Made by a program: the position numbers and the translations under genes
Shown here: in pieces, positions 17,735 through 32,728 of the stretch
Layout: every line of letters starts with the position of its first letter
Numbering within the stretch: the first letter of the stretch is position 1
The notes under the pieces: generated by a model
What the model saw: only the letters and a program-made list of their open reading frames with translations
Database searches by the model: none
Told to the model about the DNA's origin: nothing
From: Alistipes sp. dk3624
Lineage (GTDB): Bacteria > Bacteroidota > Bacteroidia > Bacteroidales > Rikenellaceae
DNA: 64,000 nt
Assembly: GCF_009557455.1 (NCBI RefSeq)
Contig: NZ_CP045651.1
Location: 682,001 to 746,000 of the forward strand
Reading direction: 5' to 3'

Positions 17735-18607
17735 ATGGACAGAAGAGAATTCCTCAAGAAATCAATGTTGCTGACCGCCGGAGCCATGGTCGGCGGTTCC
17801 CTGTTTCCCGAAGCGACCCTGTCGGCCGCCCAAAGCGGAAGCGCCGCCGGGAAGAAAAAAACGATCGGGCTCCAGCTCTATTCGATCGGGGGCGATATGG
17901 GCAAAGACGCCGCCGGATCGTTGAAAAAAATATCGGACATGGGTTATTCGACCGCCGAAACCGCTTCATACGGAGACGGTAAATTCTACGGCCGCACGCC
18001 CGCCGAATTCCGCAAGATGGCCGAAGACGTCGGCATCCGGGTCACCGGAGCGCACCTCGGCCGCGGATACGACGCCGGATGGGAAGACTGGTGGAAGCAG
18101 GCTTGCGACGCGCAGGCTGCCGTCGGCGGCAAGTACATCGTACTGCCGGGCATCGATTTCGGGAAGACGGAAGCCGATCTGAAAAGAACCTGCGAATACT
18201 TCGACAAGGTGGGAGCCATCGCCAATGCCGCCGGCTTGAAATTCGGCTACCACAATCACGCCCACGAATTCAACAAACAGGACGGATACGTGATCGAGAA
18301 CTACCTGCTCGAACATACCGATCCCGAGAAAGTGATGTTCGAACTGGACGTTTACTGGGCCAGCAAGGGCGGCGTCAACCCGTCGGCTTACATCCAGAAA
18401 TACGCAGGGCGTTTCCCGCTGTTGCACATCAAGGACGACAATGTCATCGGAGCCAGCCAGACCATCGACTTCGAAGCGATCTTCAATGCCGCCTACAAAC
18501 AGGGGCTCGAAGCTTACTACGTGGAGATCGAAGCCAACGACATCCCGCCGATGGAGTGCGCCGAAAAGAGCGCCGAATACCTCAGCGCAGCTAAATTCGT
18601 TAAATAA
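17735..18607 (+). CDS. Exported sugar isomerase/epimerase-like TIM-barrel protein
   Basis: 290 residues with a Tat leader: DRREFLKKS then a hydrophobic stretch ending near LSAAQ. The mature part is an AP-endonuclease-2-like TIM barrel with metal-ligand segments EIE-type at the end (YYVEIEAND), HNHAHEF and LHIKDDN. Family members are isomerases, epimerases or hydratases of keto sugars. In Bacteroides a related gene beside DUF1080 and Gfo/Idh/MocA genes acts on 3-keto-sugar products (literature recalled: hydratase step). First gene of a three-gene operon whose products all carry export signals. Confidence 0.85.
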   Translation: MDRREFLKKSMLLTAGAMVGGSLFPEATLSAAQSGSAAGKKKTIGLQLYSIGGDMGKDAAGSLKKISDMGYSTAETASYGDGKFYGRTPAEFRKMAEDVGIRVTGAHLGRGYDAGWEDWWKQACDAQAAVGGKYIVLPGIDFGKTEADLKRTCEYFDKVGAIANAAGLKFGYHNHAHEFNKQDGYVIENYLLEHTDPEKVMFELDVYWASKGGVNPSAYIQKYAGRFPLLHIKDDNVIGASQTIDFEAIFNAAYKQGLEAYYVEIEANDIPPMECAEKSAEYLSAAKFVK

Positions 18608-18643
18608 CCGACATAACCAACCAAACTAAAACCTTTATATCTT

Positions 18644-20116
18644 ATGGCAGAAAAAATATCCCGGAGAGACTTTTTGCGCACGAGCGCAGTCGGCCTGGCC
18701 GGACTGACCATCGTTCCGAGTTCCGTTTTCGGTAAAGCGGCCGGACAAACCGCCCCGAGCGACAAACTGAACATCGCGGCCGTCGGTATCGGCGGCATGG
18801 GCGCAGCCAACCTGTCGAACATGGAAACGGAGAACATCGTGGCCCTGTGCGACGTGGACTGGCAATATGCGAAAGGAACTTTCGACCGCTATTCGAAAGC
18901 CAAACGGTACTGGGATTACCGTAAGATGCTCGACGACATGGGCAAGAGCATCGACGCCGTGCTGGTGGCTACCGCCGACCACACCCACTGTATCGTCGCC
19001 GCCGAAGCCATGACCCTCGGCAAGCACGTTTACGTACAGAAACCGCTGACCCATTCGGTTTACGAATCGCGTCTGCTGACCAAACTGGCCAAGAAATACA
19101 AAGTAGCTACGCAGATGGGTAATCAGGGCGCGTCGGGAGCCGGCGTACGCCAGGTCTGCGACTGGATCTGGAACGGCGAGATCGGCGAAGTGACCCGCGT
19201 GGACACCTTCACCGACCGTCCGATCTGGCCGCAGGGGCTGATGCGCCCGAGCGAAGTGGATCAAATTCCCGAAACGCTGAACTGGGATCTGTTCATCGGA
19301 CCGGCTCAGATGCGTCCGTACAACAAAATCTATACCCCGTGGAACTGGCGCGGTTGGTGGGATTTCGGCACCGGAGCCCTCGGCGACATGGCCTGCCACA
19401 TCCTGCACCCGGTATTCAAAGGTCTGCAGTTGGGTTATCCCGACCGCGTACAGGGCAGTTCGACGGCCCTGCTGACCGATTGCGCCCCGAACGCCCAGAT
19501 GGTGAAATACGTTTTCCCGGCCCGTGCGAAAAAAGAGAAAGTCAACATGCCCGAAGTGGAAGTAACCTGGTACGACGGCGGTCTGACCCCGCCGCGTCCG
19601 GCAGGCGTACCGGCAGGCAAATCGCTGAACGACAGCGGCGGCGGCGCTATCTTCTACGGAACGAAAGATACGCTGATCTGCGGTTGCTACGGCGTGAACC
19701 CGTGGCTGGTATCCGGCCGCAAACCGGAAGTTCCGAAGATGAACCGCGAAATCACCGCCAGCCACGAACAGGACTGGATCCGCGCCTGCAAAGAGAATCC
19801 TCAATCGCGCGTACAGACCTCGTCCGACTTCAGCGAAGCGGGTCCGTTCAACGAAATGGTCGTAATGGGCGTGCTGGCAGTACGTCTGCAGGGTCTGAAC
19901 CGCGAACTGGAATGGGACGGCGAAAAGATGAAGTTCAAGAACATCGGCGCGAACGAAACGATGCAGATCATGATCGAAGACGGGTTCACGATCCACAACG
20001 GGCACCCGACCTTCAACAAACGCTACACCGATCCGTTCAACGCGAAAGAGTTTGCAGAACAGATGATCAAGCACAATTACCGCGACGGCTGGGAACTGCC
20101 GGCCATGCCCAAGTAA
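18644..20116 (+). CDS. Exported Gfo/Idh/MocA family oxidoreductase
   Basis: 490 residues. A twin-arginine leader ISRRDFLRTSAVGLAGL fits export of a folded, cofactor-loaded enzyme. The Rossmann fold starts at about residue 45 with AAVGIGGMGAANL, ALCDVDW follows, and VQKPLTHS is the EKP-type motif with the conserved catalytic-region Lys. C-terminal part is the alpha/beta substrate domain with WNWRGWWDFGTGALGDMACH. Members with a Tat leader keep NAD(H) tightly bound and oxidise or reduce sugars in the periplasm. It probably produces the 3-keto sugar used by the neighbours (inference). Confidence 0.9.
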   Translation: MAEKISRRDFLRTSAVGLAGLTIVPSSVFGKAAGQTAPSDKLNIAAVGIGGMGAANLSNMETENIVALCDVDWQYAKGTFDRYSKAKRYWDYRKMLDDMGKSIDAVLVATADHTHCIVAAEAMTLGKHVYVQKPLTHSVYESRLLTKLAKKYKVATQMGNQGASGAGVRQVCDWIWNGEIGEVTRVDTFTDRPIWPQGLMRPSEVDQIPETLNWDLFIGPAQMRPYNKIYTPWNWRGWWDFGTGALGDMACHILHPVFKGLQLGYPDRVQGSSTALLTDCAPNAQMVKYVFPARAKKEKVNMPEVEVTWYDGGLTPPRPAGVPAGKSLNDSGGGAIFYGTKDTLICGCYGVNPWLVSGRKPEVPKMNREITASHEQDWIRACKENPQSRVQTSSDFSEAGPFNEMVVMGVLAVRLQGLNRELEWDGEKMKFKNIGANETMQIMIEDGFTIHNGHPTFNKRYTDPFNAKEFAEQMIKHNYRDGWELPAMPK

Positions 20117-26911: not shown

Positions 26912-27313
26912 TTATTTGTTCTGTCCGAATCCTTTTACCGATATCCTGACAGGCAGATCGTACCCCTCCGCAATCAAATCGGCCTCCTGCTCGAAGTGCC
27001 CCGGAACGACCGGGTGTACGCGCAAACGCACCGAAGCCGTATCGCCGGGAGCCAGCGGACGGGGACGCAGACTCACTACCGACAGGCAGCCGCAGGTCGT
27101 TTCGATCCGGTCGATCTGCAAAGGCTCCGTACCGGCGTTTCTGTAAACCACGTTAAACACGGTATCCCGGCTGATCGGGAACTTCCCCAAGTCGATCAAC
27201 GTATCGGTTTCGATCTCCGGAGACGCGGACGCCGCACCGTTCCCGCATCCCGGCCAGCCCAGACACACCCCGGCAAGCCCCAAAAGAGAACATGCGATTT
27301 TCACCGTTTTCAT
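26912..27313 (-). CDS. DUF1573 domain lipoprotein
   Basis: 133 residues. Lipoprotein-type signal with a Cys at residue 23 (GLAGVCLGWPGCGN). The mature part is one DUF1573 Ig-like domain: IDLGKFPISRDTVFNVVYRNAGTEPLQI then TTCGCLSV, the family signature, and PGDTASVRLRV. Function of the family is unknown; in Bacteroidota such proteins are envelope-located. Last gene of the NVEALA-propeller operon; its ATG overlaps the upstream stop by one base (TGATG). Confidence 0.85.
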   Translation of the reverse strand: MKTVKIACSLLGLAGVCLGWPGCGNGAASASPEIETDTLIDLGKFPISRDTVFNVVYRNAGTEPLQIDRIETTCGCLSVVSLRPRPLAPGDTASVRLRVHPVVPGHFEQEADLIAEGYDLPVRISVKGFGQNK

Positions 27314-28536
27314 CAGATACTGTCCAAAGGATAATAAACGATAACCGGATTGTCGTTCTCTTCGGTCGAATCAACGATCTCGCGGATCCGGGGATCGGAA
27401 TAAATCGGGTCGTCGTCCATCTTCGCCCGGTCGATCCCCGCAATCTCGTAAGCGGGGATGCAACTTACCAACGCATTCTCGGTAGCCGTGCAAAAAGTTT
27501 TCCGCCCGGGATAAAACAGACTGCTCCCCCACGTCCCCGCCGGGGAGTAATGAATGGCCCGGCGGGTCTTCAGATCCCAAATCAGGTAATTGACGGCATG
27601 GAATGTAATCTCTTTCAATTCGTTATTCAAATAATACGTTCCTGTTCCTCGATAGATGTGATATTCCGCACAACCGAACTTCTCGGTCAACCAGACCCGT
27701 TCGATTCCGCTGGAATAACCTTTTTTTTGAGCCTTACTGACCACTTCCGGATAATAATCATAGGGACCGCCATCGTCAATCGCCTTTTGAGGGAACGCTT
27801 GTTTACCGGTCTGTATTACATACAAAGGGTCTACGCGTCCGTCGTGCCACGTGTATAATGTATCGTTCAGGACGGAAGTCATCAAGAACATACCGTTGTT
27901 TTTAGCCATCGACGGTTGCGCTACTCCGCATGACGTCGCACCTGTCACCCGATAAGGCAACGCATAATCCCGAAACGCGTAATTACCCGCCTTAAATACC
28001 CCGTATTCATTAGGATAATCCTGAGCATTCGTGAATAGTACGACCAGGTTCTGATCGTCGGCCAGAGACATATCCTTGATAAAATCCATCTCCTCGGCAT
28101 AACCGACCTTTTCGAGCAATTTTCCATCGAAGCCGTAACGGAAAATCTTTTTACGCAAAATATCATATACGCCTATAAACTCGCCTTGACCGTCGACATA
28201 GAAAGCCCCCATACTCAACTGTTCTTGGGGACCTCTGCCGATCTGCCCGATCCGATTTCTAAATGCGCCGGTCGAATCGAAAACCAAAATACGTTTGTCA
28301 TCCTGAACGACAATAAAGTTTTTATGGACGACAACCTTTTGGATTTGACCGATCAGACAATCGTCCGAGGTCTCTAATTTCACAAATCTCCATCTATCGG
28401 GAAGACTGTCTTTCAAAAACGGATTTTTTACCGGACAATCTTTCGTACGGAAGATCGTCACCCCGGAAAGAACCCGATCGTTCGGTTGACTACATCCTAC
28501 TGCTAATAATATTAAAACCAATACGGCATACTTCAC
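27313..28536 (-). CDS. Six-bladed beta-propeller lipoprotein, copy B
   Basis: 407 residues if started at the GTG at 28536 (MKYAVLVLILLAVGCSQ, acylated C15). This start gives exactly the length of paralogue A (407) and the same lipobox position; an ATG at 28581 would add 15 residues. Blade segments include VVHKNFIVVQDDKRILVFD, FRNRIGQIGRGPQEQL and FIGVYDILRKKIFRYGFDG, the pattern of Bacteroidota six-bladed propellers that travel with NVEALA peptides. The last about 145 residues are nearly identical to paralogue A while the N-terminal half has diverged. Outer-surface or periplasmic location; ligand unknown. Confidence 0.85.
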   Translation of the reverse strand: MKYAVLVLILLAVGCSQPNDRVLSGVTIFRTKDCPVKNPFLKDSLPDRWRFVKLETSDDCLIGQIQKVVVHKNFIVVQDDKRILVFDSTGAFRNRIGQIGRGPQEQLSMGAFYVDGQGEFIGVYDILRKKIFRYGFDGKLLEKVGYAEEMDFIKDMSLADDQNLVVLFTNAQDYPNEYGVFKAGNYAFRDYALPYRVTGATSCGVAQPSMAKNNGMFLMTSVLNDTLYTWHDGRVDPLYVIQTGKQAFPQKAIDDGGPYDYYPEVVSKAQKKGYSSGIERVWLTEKFGCAEYHIYRGTGTYYLNNELKEITFHAVNYLIWDLKTRRAIHYSPAGTWGSSLFYPGRKTFCTATENALVSCIPAYEIAGIDRAKMDDDPIYSDPRIREIVDSTEENDNPVIVYYPLDSI

Positions 28537-28577
28537 AATAACAATCTCTTTTAATTTAGAGTTTCCGACCAACTCGG

Positions 28578-28616
28578 TCATTCTTCAAAAAAACATGCGA
28601 TTTTCACCGTTTTCAT
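28578..28616 (-). pseudogene. Remnant of a duplicated DUF1573 start
   Basis: Directly after the stop of propeller A, 24 bases identical to the start of the DUF1573 gene (MKTVKIAC) are followed by FFEE and a stop. It shows that the duplicated unit was a propeller gene plus the first bases of its downstream neighbour. Confidence 0.75.
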
Positions 28617-29839
28617 CAGATACTGTCCAAAGGATAATAAACGATAACCGGATTGTCGTTCTCTTCGGTCGAATCAACGATCTCGCGGATCCGGGAATCG
28701 GAATAAATCGGGTCGCCGTCCATCTTCGCCCGGTCGATCCCCGCAATCTCGTAAGCGGGGATGCAACTCACCAACTCATTTTCGGTAGCCGTGCAAAAAT
28801 TTTTTTGGCCGGGATAAAACAAGTTGATGCCCCACGTCCCCGCCGGGGAGTAATGAATGGCCCGATGGGTCTTCAGATCCCAAATCAGATAATTGACGGC
28901 ATGAAATATCATTTCGTGCAATTGGTTATTCATATAAAATGACCCTGTCCCTCGATAGATGTGATATTCCACACAACCGAACTTCTCGGTCAACCAGACC
29001 CGTTCAATTCCGCTGGAATAACCTTCCCGTTGGGCTTTGTCAACCACTTTCTGATAGCAGGTGTAAGGCCCTCCGTTATCTATCAGTTTCTGCGGAATCG
29101 TTTTTTTGCCTGTTTTAACCAACAGCGAAGGCACCAGTTTTCCCTGCGAAAAAGCGTACAGAGTATCCGACAAAACGGCTGTGACCATAAGAGTCGCGTC
29201 GTTTTTACCGAAAGAGGGTCTCGCCACGTCGGATGCTATTTCACTCATGACACGAAAAGGCAATGCGTAAGAACGGAACGCATAGTTCCGTTCTTTGAAA
29301 ACCGCATATTCATTGGGATAATCATTGGCATTCCTGAATTGAACGACTACATGCTTATCGTCGGCTTTGCATAAATCCGCAATAAAATCCAACTCTTTAT
29401 CGCAATCGACCTTCTCGATCAAATCGCCGTCGAAAGCATAACGGAAAATTTTGTGCAGCAAAGCATCGTAAATACCTACGAATTCCCGTTCTTTATCCAC
29501 ATAAAAAGCGTCGATACTCAACTGTTCTTTGGGGCCTCTTCCTTTTTGCCCGATCCGATTTCGGAATACTCCCGCGGAATCGAAGACGAAAACATGCTGA
29601 TCATCCTGAATAAAGATAAGATCCTTACAAATAGCAACTTTTTTGATCTGCCCGATAAGGCAGCTATCGCTGGTTTCAAGCTTTACGAAACGCCATTTAT
29701 GCGGAACGCTGTCTTTCAGAAAAGGATTTTTAACAGGACATTCTGCTACATCAATAACGCTGACCTCCAATAAGCCTGTTTTTACTGAATCATTACATCC
29801 GAGTAAAAACAGGCTCACGATGATAAGAAATTGTTTCAT
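28616..29839 (-). CDS. Six-bladed beta-propeller lipoprotein, copy A
   Basis: 407 residues, lipoprotein signal MKQFLIIVSLFLLGC with acylated C15. The mature N terminus shares CPVKNPFLKDS with copy B; blades show the same VFVFDSAGVFRNRIGQKGRGP pattern (quoted in part). It follows the NVEALA gene by 11 bases and is clearly the operon's second gene. Tandem paralogue of copy B. Confidence 0.86.
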   Translation of the reverse strand: MKQFLIIVSLFLLGCNDSVKTGLLEVSVIDVAECPVKNPFLKDSVPHKWRFVKLETSDSCLIGQIKKVAICKDLIFIQDDQHVFVFDSAGVFRNRIGQKGRGPKEQLSIDAFYVDKEREFVGIYDALLHKIFRYAFDGDLIEKVDCDKELDFIADLCKADDKHVVVQFRNANDYPNEYAVFKERNYAFRSYALPFRVMSEIASDVARPSFGKNDATLMVTAVLSDTLYAFSQGKLVPSLLVKTGKKTIPQKLIDNGGPYTCYQKVVDKAQREGYSSGIERVWLTEKFGCVEYHIYRGTGSFYMNNQLHEMIFHAVNYLIWDLKTHRAIHYSPAGTWGINLFYPGQKNFCTATENELVSCIPAYEIAGIDRAKMDGDPIYSDSRIREIVDSTEENDNPVIVYYPLDSI

Positions 29840-29850
29840 TAATTTATGAA

Positions 29851-30228
29851 TTATAATTCCTGTATTACACTCAAATGTGATTTAGCACAGCAGTTATTGT
29901 CTTTAGAAGGACATATCCCATAACGCACTGTCTTAGTAACACCGACTTCTCCACCTCCAGAGATGGGAAAATCTATTCCTCCAATAGTAACGACAATTGT
30001 TCCACCTGTACTTAAGGAAGTAGTTACTCTCGTGGGCTCGGAATAATTTTCCACGGCATCACGCACGTATGTAAAGATATCACAATCATCCACCCCTTCA
30101 TCTCCACTCAACGCTTCGACATTGGCAAGCAGCAGATCCGAAGAAGCGGAATTGCCCTCAAAATAAACGGTCGCAGAAAAAGCGACAACGCCGGCAGCCA
30201 TAACGGCAAAGAGTAAATTCTTTTTCAT
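29851..30228 (-). CDS. NVEALA family secreted peptide precursor
   Basis: 125 residues. N-terminal signal-like segment (MKKNLLFAVMAAGVVAFSAT) and, at residues 36-41, NVEALS, a one-residue variant of the NVEALA motif that names the family, reached through DLLLANVEAL. The remaining about 84 residues hold four Cys (49, 106, 113, 114), three of them in the C-terminal GICPSKDNNCC. In known families the motif precedes a small Cys-containing mature peptide; cleavage there is inference. First gene of the operon with its own promoter; two propeller lipoproteins and a DUF1573 protein follow. Confidence 0.85.
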   Translation of the reverse strand: MKKNLLFAVMAAGVVAFSATVYFEGNSASSDLLLANVEALSGDEGVDDCDIFTYVRDAVENYSEPTRVTTSLSTGGTIVVTIGGIDFPISGGGEVGVTKTVRYGICPSKDNNCCAKSHLSVIQEL

Positions 30229-30475: not shown

Positions 30476-32728
30476 TTACACGATCTGCTGCGTCCGCTGG
30501 ATAACCATGTCCTGCCACTCTTTGCAGAGCGTCGTGAAACGGGCCGACCATCCGGCTACGCGCACCGGTAGGTTCGGGTACTTCTCCGGGTGCATCTGCG
30601 CGTCGATCAGCGTCGCCGAATCGACTACGTCGATGTGCATGTAGAAACCGCCCTTCTCGCGGAACGTCTTGGCCAGCGCGACCAGCGCGGCGATCCCGTT
30701 CTCGTCCTTGACCGAATCGGGCAGGACTTTCAGTTCGACCGTAGCGCCGTTCGGACAGCGGGTGAAATCGAGTTTGCAGTACGAATTCAGCACGGCCGTC
30801 GGCCCCTTGCGGTCGCTGCCGGGCGTCGGCGAACAGTTCGTCGCCAGGATATCCCCGACGCGACTGCCTTCGGGCGTCGCCCGTCGCGCCATCCGCCAGT
30901 CGATCTCGCGGCCGAACGTACTGATCCCGCACGGACGTTTCAGTCCGTTGCGCTCCTTGACCCGGCCGACGATCGAGGTATAGTCGTCAAACACCCGTTT
31001 CATCATATCGTCGGCCTCGGCGTGGTCGTTGCCGTAGAACGTAAAACGGTTCTGCACCAGTCGCCGCAGGCCCTCGTTGCCCTCCCAGTTGTGACGAAGG
31101 ATATTGACGAAATGGTTCAGCCCGATGTAATTTTCTTCGAAGACCAGCTTTTTCAGCACCAGCAGGCTGTTGGCCGTATCGCTGACTCCGCCGTAGTGGA
31201 TGCCGTTGACCGTATATTTCGGGCCGCGCTCGTAATAACCGCGTCCCTTCTCGATGCATCCTTCGACGAACATCGACACCAGCGGATTGGGGTTGTTCGG
31301 ATCGTTCCAACTGCCGTCCAGCGCTTTTTGCAGATTGTCGATCTCCCGGCCGAGTTCCGACGTAAAACGGCCGTAGACCGTTTCGAAATCGTCCGCTTCG
31401 AGCGGAACGTCCTTATCGAGGTTCAGTGCGCGGAACAACGGCTGCATCATGTCGCAAGGCGAATAGATGAACGCCGTCTTGCCCGGAATGATCGCTTCCC
31501 AGCAACCGTCGTTGGTAAACTCGCGGGCTTCTTCGAGCGGATAGCCGAACTGCACCAACCCGTCGATCACGGTATTCTCGTTGTACATCGAAACGATCCC
31601 GCCGCCGAAACGTTGCACCTCGGCAATCCGGCGGAACAGTTTCTCGGGCGTATGATCGCCGATACGCACGGCGATCGGATAATCGCTGATATGCAACTCT
31701 TCGACGACATCCAGGACGAGGTAGGTAATCGGATTGGTCACTTCGTTCCCGTCCTTGTCGATCCCGCCGAGGATAATGTTCTGATAGAACTGGGCATCCC
31801 CCGAACCGTTGAATTCGCCGATCCACTCGGTTCCTTTGATCCAAAAATGGGCGATCAGTTCGCGGGCTTCGTCCAGCGTGATCTTCCCTTTCTGCAGGTC
31901 GGCCTCCAGATAAGGCCACAACATCTGGTCGAAACGCCCGATCCCCGACCAGTTGCCCATCAACCGGTGAAAAGCGTACAGCGACCATAGCGACTGCACC
32001 GCTTCGCGGAAGTTACGCGGCGGATTCTCGGGGACGTTTTCGAGCGTATCGATGATATTCTGGTAAAACCGGCGTTCGCTGTCCGGCGCATTCCCTTTCA
32101 TCTCCTTGAGCAGAGCGATGTTGCGCTGCTGCCACAGCGCAGCGGCATCGAGAGTCATCAGCATGGATTCGAGCAGGTCGGTTCCGTGCGAATCCAGCCC
32201 GCCCCGGCTCAGCCGTTCGTCGATCTCGGCCCGTAGCCCCTTATACCCCTGATGCAACACTTTGGCGAATCCGACGGTAGTATGGCTGACCGAGCCCATG
32301 TTCAGCGCCGGAATGCGGTGTTGCGCCGCTTCGCGCAGCGTGGCCGACCCGACGATCAGTTCGCCCGGCAGAATACGCAACGGAGCATTCCGCGCCACGC
32401 TCAGAGCCGCATAGCCGTATTTGCGGTTATTCGACAATTTTTCATCGCGCCCTTCGGGAAATTCCCAGTCGACGGTAGGCATGTTGCGGCCGTGCTGACC
32501 GGACAGCCCCATTTGCGCCAAGTGGTGCGTGATATCGCTGAGACGTTTCGGCGATTCGGGATGCCACGCCTGCCCCCAGTTATAGAGATGTTCGCCCGGT
32601 TCGGACAAGGCTTTCGCCGGCGCGCTTCCGGCAAACACTTTTTCATTGAGTCCCACAAACAGGGCGCACAATCCGAGCGACGAGCGTTTCAGAAATTCGC
32701 TTCGCGAAATGCGTTCTTGATTGTTCAT
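30476..32728 (-). CDS. Glycyl radical enzyme (PFL/diol-dehydratase superfamily) with a Tat-like leader
   Basis: 750 residues. Both catalytic hallmarks are present: thiyl-radical C409 with E411 in DGCWE, and the glycyl radical loop RVAGWSARF with G726. Length and the GCxE pair fit the dehydratase/lyase branch rather than classical PFL (which has CC). Unusually, residues 6-34 look like an export leader: ISRSEFLKRSSLGLCALFVG resembles a Tat signal whose second Arg is Ser (compare SRRDFL and DRREFL in the Tat proteins at 17.7-20.1 kb). Glycyl radical enzymes are normally cytoplasmic and need a radical-SAM activase; none is encoded in this window. Monocistronic. Substrate unknown. Confidence 0.85.
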   Translation of the reverse strand: MNNQERISRSEFLKRSSLGLCALFVGLNEKVFAGSAPAKALSEPGEHLYNWGQAWHPESPKRLSDITHHLAQMGLSGQHGRNMPTVDWEFPEGRDEKLSNNRKYGYAALSVARNAPLRILPGELIVGSATLREAAQHRIPALNMGSVSHTTVGFAKVLHQGYKGLRAEIDERLSRGGLDSHGTDLLESMLMTLDAAALWQQRNIALLKEMKGNAPDSERRFYQNIIDTLENVPENPPRNFREAVQSLWSLYAFHRLMGNWSGIGRFDQMLWPYLEADLQKGKITLDEARELIAHFWIKGTEWIGEFNGSGDAQFYQNIILGGIDKDGNEVTNPITYLVLDVVEELHISDYPIAVRIGDHTPEKLFRRIAEVQRFGGGIVSMYNENTVIDGLVQFGYPLEEAREFTNDGCWEAIIPGKTAFIYSPCDMMQPLFRALNLDKDVPLEADDFETVYGRFTSELGREIDNLQKALDGSWNDPNNPNPLVSMFVEGCIEKGRGYYERGPKYTVNGIHYGGVSDTANSLLVLKKLVFEENYIGLNHFVNILRHNWEGNEGLRRLVQNRFTFYGNDHAEADDMMKRVFDDYTSIVGRVKERNGLKRPCGISTFGREIDWRMARRATPEGSRVGDILATNCSPTPGSDRKGPTAVLNSYCKLDFTRCPNGATVELKVLPDSVKDENGIAALVALAKTFREKGGFYMHIDVVDSATLIDAQMHPEKYPNLPVRVAGWSARFTTLCKEWQDMVIQRTQQIV

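Follow-up and report, generated by a model that had tools for sequence, protein, structure and literature searches.

Glycyl radical enzymes (GREs) are treated as cytoplasmic because the activase that installs their radical depends on SAM and a reductant. The gene analysed here lies in a 64-kb (64,000-nucleotide) stretch of DNA, referred to as the window, and encodes a GRE whose N terminus resembles a Tat signal with only one of the two usual arginines. This raises the question of whether the enzyme is exported or whether, as the earlier note put it, an Arg-to-Ser change has blocked the export of a formerly exported protein. The comparative evidence, which is drawn from sequences, leans toward export rather than blocked export.

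The open reading frame is on the minus strand (30476..32728, 750 aa), the plus strand of the same interval being interrupted by stops. Its product, with the N terminus MNNQERISRSEFLKRSSLGLCALFVGLNEKVFAG, matches the Pfam families PFL-like (5.4e-96) and Gly_radical (3.7e-26), and it is the sole PF01228 match in the 3.02-Mb window genome. By alignment, the thiyl Cys409 and Glu411 lie in G408-C-W-E411 (31496..31507, minus strand) and the expected radical site is Gly726 (30551..30553, minus strand); C409-W410-E411 and G726 showed no variation across an 11-sequence alignment. Both GCWE and the loop R-V/I-[AS]-G-W-[SN]-A-R-F were present in all 46 homolog rows checked (44 distinct, with two Clostridial records appearing twice). 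The earlier claim of a real GRE with intact catalytic residues was thus confirmed by Pfam and alignment. An AlphaFold model built with 10 sequences was weak (mean pLDDT 64.4, pTM 0.68), with the active-site stretches and residues 1-57 below pLDDT 50. Two similar six-bladed propeller proteins of the DUF5128 type are encoded in tandem just downstream of the GRE gene (window 27313-30228, minus strand), and a small protein beside them has a weak NVEALA match that is below the NVEALA cut-off.

NCBIfam function cut-offs were not reached by the GRE (best score 348.9 bits vs 678.2), and by these cut-offs it does not belong to the PFL, HypD, CutC, propanesulfonate or decarboxylase families. Among solved structures the best profile matches were 5i2a (1.6e-111) and 1r8w (7.1e-111), the B12-independent 1,2-propanediol/glycerol dehydratases. 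The window GRE shares the C-x-E motif and the glycyl loop with these enzymes but has GCWE rather than GCVE, is shorter and falls in a distinct subfamily, with a leader in its Bacteroidales branch. The trans-4-hydroxy-L-proline dehydratase type GREs of Bacteroidales belong to the same superfamily (33-34% identity) but have an SGCIE motif, and such a leader is absent in those read. A diol-dehydratase-type eliminase is suggested by the C-x-E motif and by the closest relatives, and the GRE may stand for the Bacteroidales members of a dehydratase-type GRE subfamily that has not been described, an assignment that forms part of the best reading given below and shares its probability.

The Tat-like leader covers residues 1-33 (32630..32728, minus strand) as judged from the alignment of relatives, with cleavage after A33 set by eye. 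Within it, the motif scan and ortholog counts define a Tat-like motif with an unpaired Arg9, S8-R-S-E-F-L-K14 (32687..32707, minus strand), which is followed by a hydrophobic stretch from S16 to L27 (32648..32683, minus strand; located by hydrophobicity). A small-residue site follows the hydrophobic stretch in the GRE copies read, which is the layout of a signal peptide. Some GREs are known to carry a microcompartment targeting peptide; this candidate was rejected given the signal-peptide layout of the N terminus. A lipoprotein signal was likewise rejected, since LGLC does not fit the lipobox rule and the Cys in question occurs in 3 of 15 leaders. Codons 2-60 contain no ATG that would skip the leader in the window gene or in its two 80% relatives, only scattered GTG and TTG, and on this basis we rejected an internal start that gives a leaderless form. 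In some of the other orthologs an ATG is found around codons 8-11, immediately ahead of S-R, or at codon 26 or 42.

Orthologs were collected from a GTDB contig scan (10 relatives) and from whole-genome scans of 268, 393, 249 and 249 genomes; the 393 order genomes yielded no new ortholog, and the second set of 249 was largely the same family sample. The pattern S-R-x-[DES]-F-[LI]-[KR] was found in all 15 Bacteroidales orthologs with a readable N terminus (three of them 5' parts of genes divided over contigs), with S, R and F invariant. With 15 of 15 copies carrying it, the leader goes beyond a chance resemblance. The earlier assignment to the dehydratase/lyase branch with a Tat-like leader is supported. 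The residue after the invariant Arg is Ala in nine leaders, Gly in two, Lys in two, Ser in the window and Arg in one, so that paired arginines are absent in 14 of the 15 (R9-S10 in the window), two having RK and one RR. A 23-row tree places all rows with the leader on the same side of one branch (100/100). The RR copy is the sister of the window's family there (92/90, not starred), and an RA group contains both RK copies. Ser10 of the window appears to be one of several states of the second position rather than a lesion.

Homologues without the leader, which the earlier note had named as evidence that would count against export, do exist: all 33 distinct Clostridial homologs are leaderless and start near window residue 57, with 43-48% identity to the window GRE for the five that were aligned. 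The outcome for this refuting condition is mixed, as the leader is universal in the Bacteroidales copies read. Among 29 loci of more distant GREs (8 of which yielded no frame by the test used), 19 Bacteroidales starts were readable and none showed such a leader by eye; one of these distant GREs (L028) has RRIF with no hydrophobic stretch after it. Proteins with the leader also have fewer cysteines on average (10.2 over 11 proteins vs 16.5 over 35 rows), which would fit export, yet this difference is confounded with phylum.

Within the window's family the leader (residues 8-28) is as conserved as the enzyme, while the linker changes fast. Between the window and L012, pS and pN were 0.85 and 0.06 for residues 8-28, 0.56 and 0.34 for the linker (29-58), and 0.73 and 0.13 for the mature part, and other pairs within the family gave the same order of leader, linker and mature change. 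Together with the lack of the second Arg in 14/15 orthologs, this contradicts the earlier description of the leader as degenerate. Between distant orthologs the leader is more variable than the enzyme (window vs L010, pN 0.44 vs 0.20), and over 55 pairs of 11 genes pN/pS was 0.345 for the leader, 0.608 for the linker and 0.262 for the mature part, figures that are rough because synonymous change is near saturation. In one copy (G265; L026 / L060:7338-9533), from a single draft genome, the leader is intact but a frameshift follows right after it, beside a run of C; this frameshift may be an error or real.

Compared with Tat signal peptides (S-R-R-x-F-L-K), all 15 GRE leaders keep S, the first R, F, [LI] and [KR] and have a similarly weak hydrophobic stretch, but the second Arg is replaced in 14. 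The hydrophobicity of the GRE leaders (GRAVY over 12 residues) ranges from 1.32 to 2.01, compared to 1.53-1.99 for 13 RR leaders of the window genome and 2.32-2.94 for eight hand-picked Sec-like leaders. The three leaders of the window's genus go up to 2.01 and so slightly exceed all 13 RR leaders, and the ten non-Rikenellaceae leaders (1.32-1.57) show no compensating hydrophobicity. By GRAVY, hydrophobic compensation for the lost Arg would apply at most to the window's genus, and we rejected it as a general explanation. A Lys or Arg within 9 residues behind the stretch occurs in 14/15 GRE leaders (in L010 it falls behind the likely cleavage site), 9/13 RR leaders and 5/8 Sec-like leaders; given its presence in the Sec-like controls, this feature decides nothing on leader type. 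A pattern scan of the window genome gave 60 matches (30 with the reversed control pattern), 18 of which have an ATG at most 35 codons away in an open frame that spans at least 100 codons; 14 of these are leader-like, and 13 of the 14 have RR, the GRE being the sole exception. The pattern had [DE] after the second position and admitted second residues coded by xGx or xCx only, so that RK leaders are missed. RR leaders near the GRE, which the earlier note had used as its comparison, are present in the window as described (17735-18607, MDRREFLKK; 18644-20116, MAEKISRRDFLRT).

TatC is present in the window genome (6.2e-60) and in 12 of the 15 leader genomes vs 0 of 5 leaderless Clostridial genomes, a comparison in which TatC presence and leader presence are confounded with phylum. 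The three leader genomes with no TatC match (G656, G812 and G772) are draft assemblies, and G656, a draft MAG, is the sole genome with RR. In E. coli TatC a Tyr packs on the second signal Arg. With positions placed by E. coli numbering, all six TatC sequences read retain the Glu opposite the second Arg, and the Tyr, which is next to this Glu, is Thr in five Rikenellaceae TatC (L052, L054, L056, L057 and L058) and kept in L051. A TatC adapted to the unpaired Arg was rejected, since the Glu is kept in 6/6. PMC13323110 describes a salt bridge between the second signal Arg and TatC E103, and together with PMC7317946 it presents Tat as the only known reader of the residues kept in the motif (S, R, F, [LI] and [KR]). 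According to excerpts of Huang and Palmer (PMC5539426), an unpaired Arg works in the Tat system of E. coli if the h-region is more hydrophobic, and section 8 states that replacement of the second Arg by D, E, H, N or Q stops export unless compensated, with A, S and G unmentioned there. The GRE leaders resemble those engineered signals in that one Arg and the rest of the motif are kept, but the extra hydrophobicity is missing in most GRE copies, and within one ortholog family their second residue can be A, S, G, K or R. A natural unpaired-Arg Tat signal was reportedly described by Hinsley et al. in 2001.

An active GRE needs an activase, which the earlier note had regarded as absent. That holds for the 64-kb window, where the motif test found none, but not for the genome: a search found an activase of 300 aa at C1:2201506-2202408, 1.49 Mb from the GRE, the only TIGR02494 protein over the cut-off in the window genome (296 bits). 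It has no leader. The window's family (Rikenellaceae, by named members) was sampled with 268 genomes, in which GRE matches of any kind at 1e-30 occur in 18, this ortholog in five (76-100% identity) and activase matches at 1e-20 in 17. A close activase (49-100% identity) was found in 5/5 genomes with this GRE vs 1/263 without it (one-sided Fisher 5e-10, with the 49% threshold picked after the list was seen); the one genome that has it without this GRE, G184, is 69% complete. In 12 of the 15 leader-bearing loci, at most 1.51 kb separates an activase from the GRE or a GRE fragment, and the three loci where it is distant are those of the window and its two 80% relatives. Within the window's genus, three genomes have the activase placed between exported-looking proteins of 950-963 aa and 563-601 aa (C1:2198643-2204114 in the window genome, L020; L112:6355-11855; L113:5691-11185). 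For the two neighbours in the window genome, Pfam gave no match, and NCBIfam and PDB gave none that was credible.

The reading that we favor, with a probability of about 0.5, is that the Bacteroidales branch gained, at the N terminus, a Tat-like signal that has a single Arg (S-R-x-[DE]-F-L-K) and that this signal is functional. The GRE would fold and gain its glycyl radical in the cytoplasm from the leaderless radical-SAM activase, and Tat would then carry the folded enzyme, still bearing its radical, to the anoxic periplasm. There it would act on a diol- or sugar-like substrate by eliminating water or a different leaving group. This is favored by the leader in all 15 Bacteroidales orthologs with S, R and F invariant, its hydrophobic stretch near that of RR leaders and below that of Sec-like leaders, its slow change within the family, TatC in 12/15 and the close activase in 5/5, as well as by the lack of a leader-skipping ATG, the exported-looking neighbours of the activase and the cited excerpts of PMC5539426. 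Against it stand the second Arg absent in 14/15 when the 13 other leaders of the same type have RR, the ten non-Rikenellaceae leaders that do not compensate by hydrophobicity, the RR genome with no TatC match, the greater variation of the leader than of the enzyme among distant orthologs, and leaderless homologs that are presumably cytoplasmic. A further elaboration, that this is a first exported GRE which travels live through Tat, with the single Arg slowing export so that activation precedes it, is tentative and on balance unlikely. Among the titles and the beginnings of abstracts listed in searches of the open-licence literature, closed journals being outside it, none concerned an exported or Tat-dependent GRE, and PMC5606693 is unrelated to exported GREs. 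If the export signal is true, glycyl radical chemistry would take place at the cell envelope of gut Bacteroidales and Tat would be capable of transporting a protein that bears a stable organic radical. The orthologs also form a natural series in which the second Arg of the Tat motif varies and the rest is held, which allows a direct test of that residue's role.

The main difficulty for this reading comes from a probable partner enzyme. An ortholog of an Fe-alcohol dehydrogenase (ADH; 69-100% identity) is present in all five family carriers of the GRE, adjoins it in four and has no leader in any of them. In the window organism, the ADH is at C1:2851881-2853059 beside the same small gene, near a gene that we take to be mutL-like, and the position in which it was left suggests that the window GRE probably moved. 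The substrate class is probably diol- or sugar-like, and the simplest picture is that the dehydratase would yield a carbonyl which the ADH reduces. Since the ADH is leaderless, either the GRE product must cross the membrane or the GRE is inside, and this tension is the main reason that our confidence in the export reading is limited to one half. The GRE could accordingly stay in the cytoplasm with its activase and the carbonyl-reducing ADH, and the leader could be a membrane-association or regulatory segment with no role in Tat. The second Arg missing in 14/15, the leaderless activase and the wholly leaderless Clostridial homologs are also consistent with such an arrangement, which we consider possible although somewhat improbable. 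The copies read nevertheless have the layout of a signal peptide, the residues that are kept are those which Tat alone is known to read according to the cited portions of PMC7317946 and PMC13323110, and the ten non-family leader genomes have no close ADH (no match in nine, a 41% relative in one).

A compromise, in which the unpaired Arg makes a slow Tat signal and the GRE is divided between cytoplasm and periplasm, would reconcile a conserved leader with a cytoplasmic ADH; the split would be superfluous if either pure reading holds, and we regard it as improbable. Slightly less probable still is export of the unfolded GRE by Sec, after which it could not be activated outside. Excerpts of PMC5539426 and PMC7317946 report that some Tat-type leaders engage Sec, and the Lys/Arg behind the stretch fails to separate the leader types here, but the hydrophobic stretch is below all eight Sec-like controls, and the retention of the catalytic Cys, Glu and Gly in every row is hard to explain for an enzyme that cannot be activated. 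That the leader is a functionless relic of a former Tat leader, the second option of the earlier note, is very improbable: Ser does replace Arg in the window and the G265 ortholog is frameshifted, but the leader is as conserved as the enzyme in the window's family at near-saturated synonymous change, RR is missing in 14/15 across the clade, and the frameshift could be a sequencing error of one draft.

Neighbouring genes were also considered for the substrate. Among 73 of the 162 listed neighbours at 19 Clostridial loci (one of 20 was dropped because its GRE was not picked up), AraC-type regulators occurred 7 times, xylose-isomerase-like barrels 4 times and Gfo/Idh/MocA proteins 4 times, and no decisive partner of the GRE was found among these 73. 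Rhamnosidase-type and other glycosidases are present near the GRE in L015 and L060; since few loci were scanned for glycosidases, a rhamnose link is not claimed. The RR-leader neighbours at window 17735-20116 are a xylose-isomerase-like TIM barrel and a Gfo/Idh/MocA oxidoreductase, families that are also seen near some Clostridial GREs (4/73 each). The leaderless GRE is common in one Clostridial family (74/295 genomes at 1e-120; L174-L203, G909 family sample), the activase adjoins it in 23 of the 33 distinct loci read, and an AraC-type regulator is often located divergently upstream.
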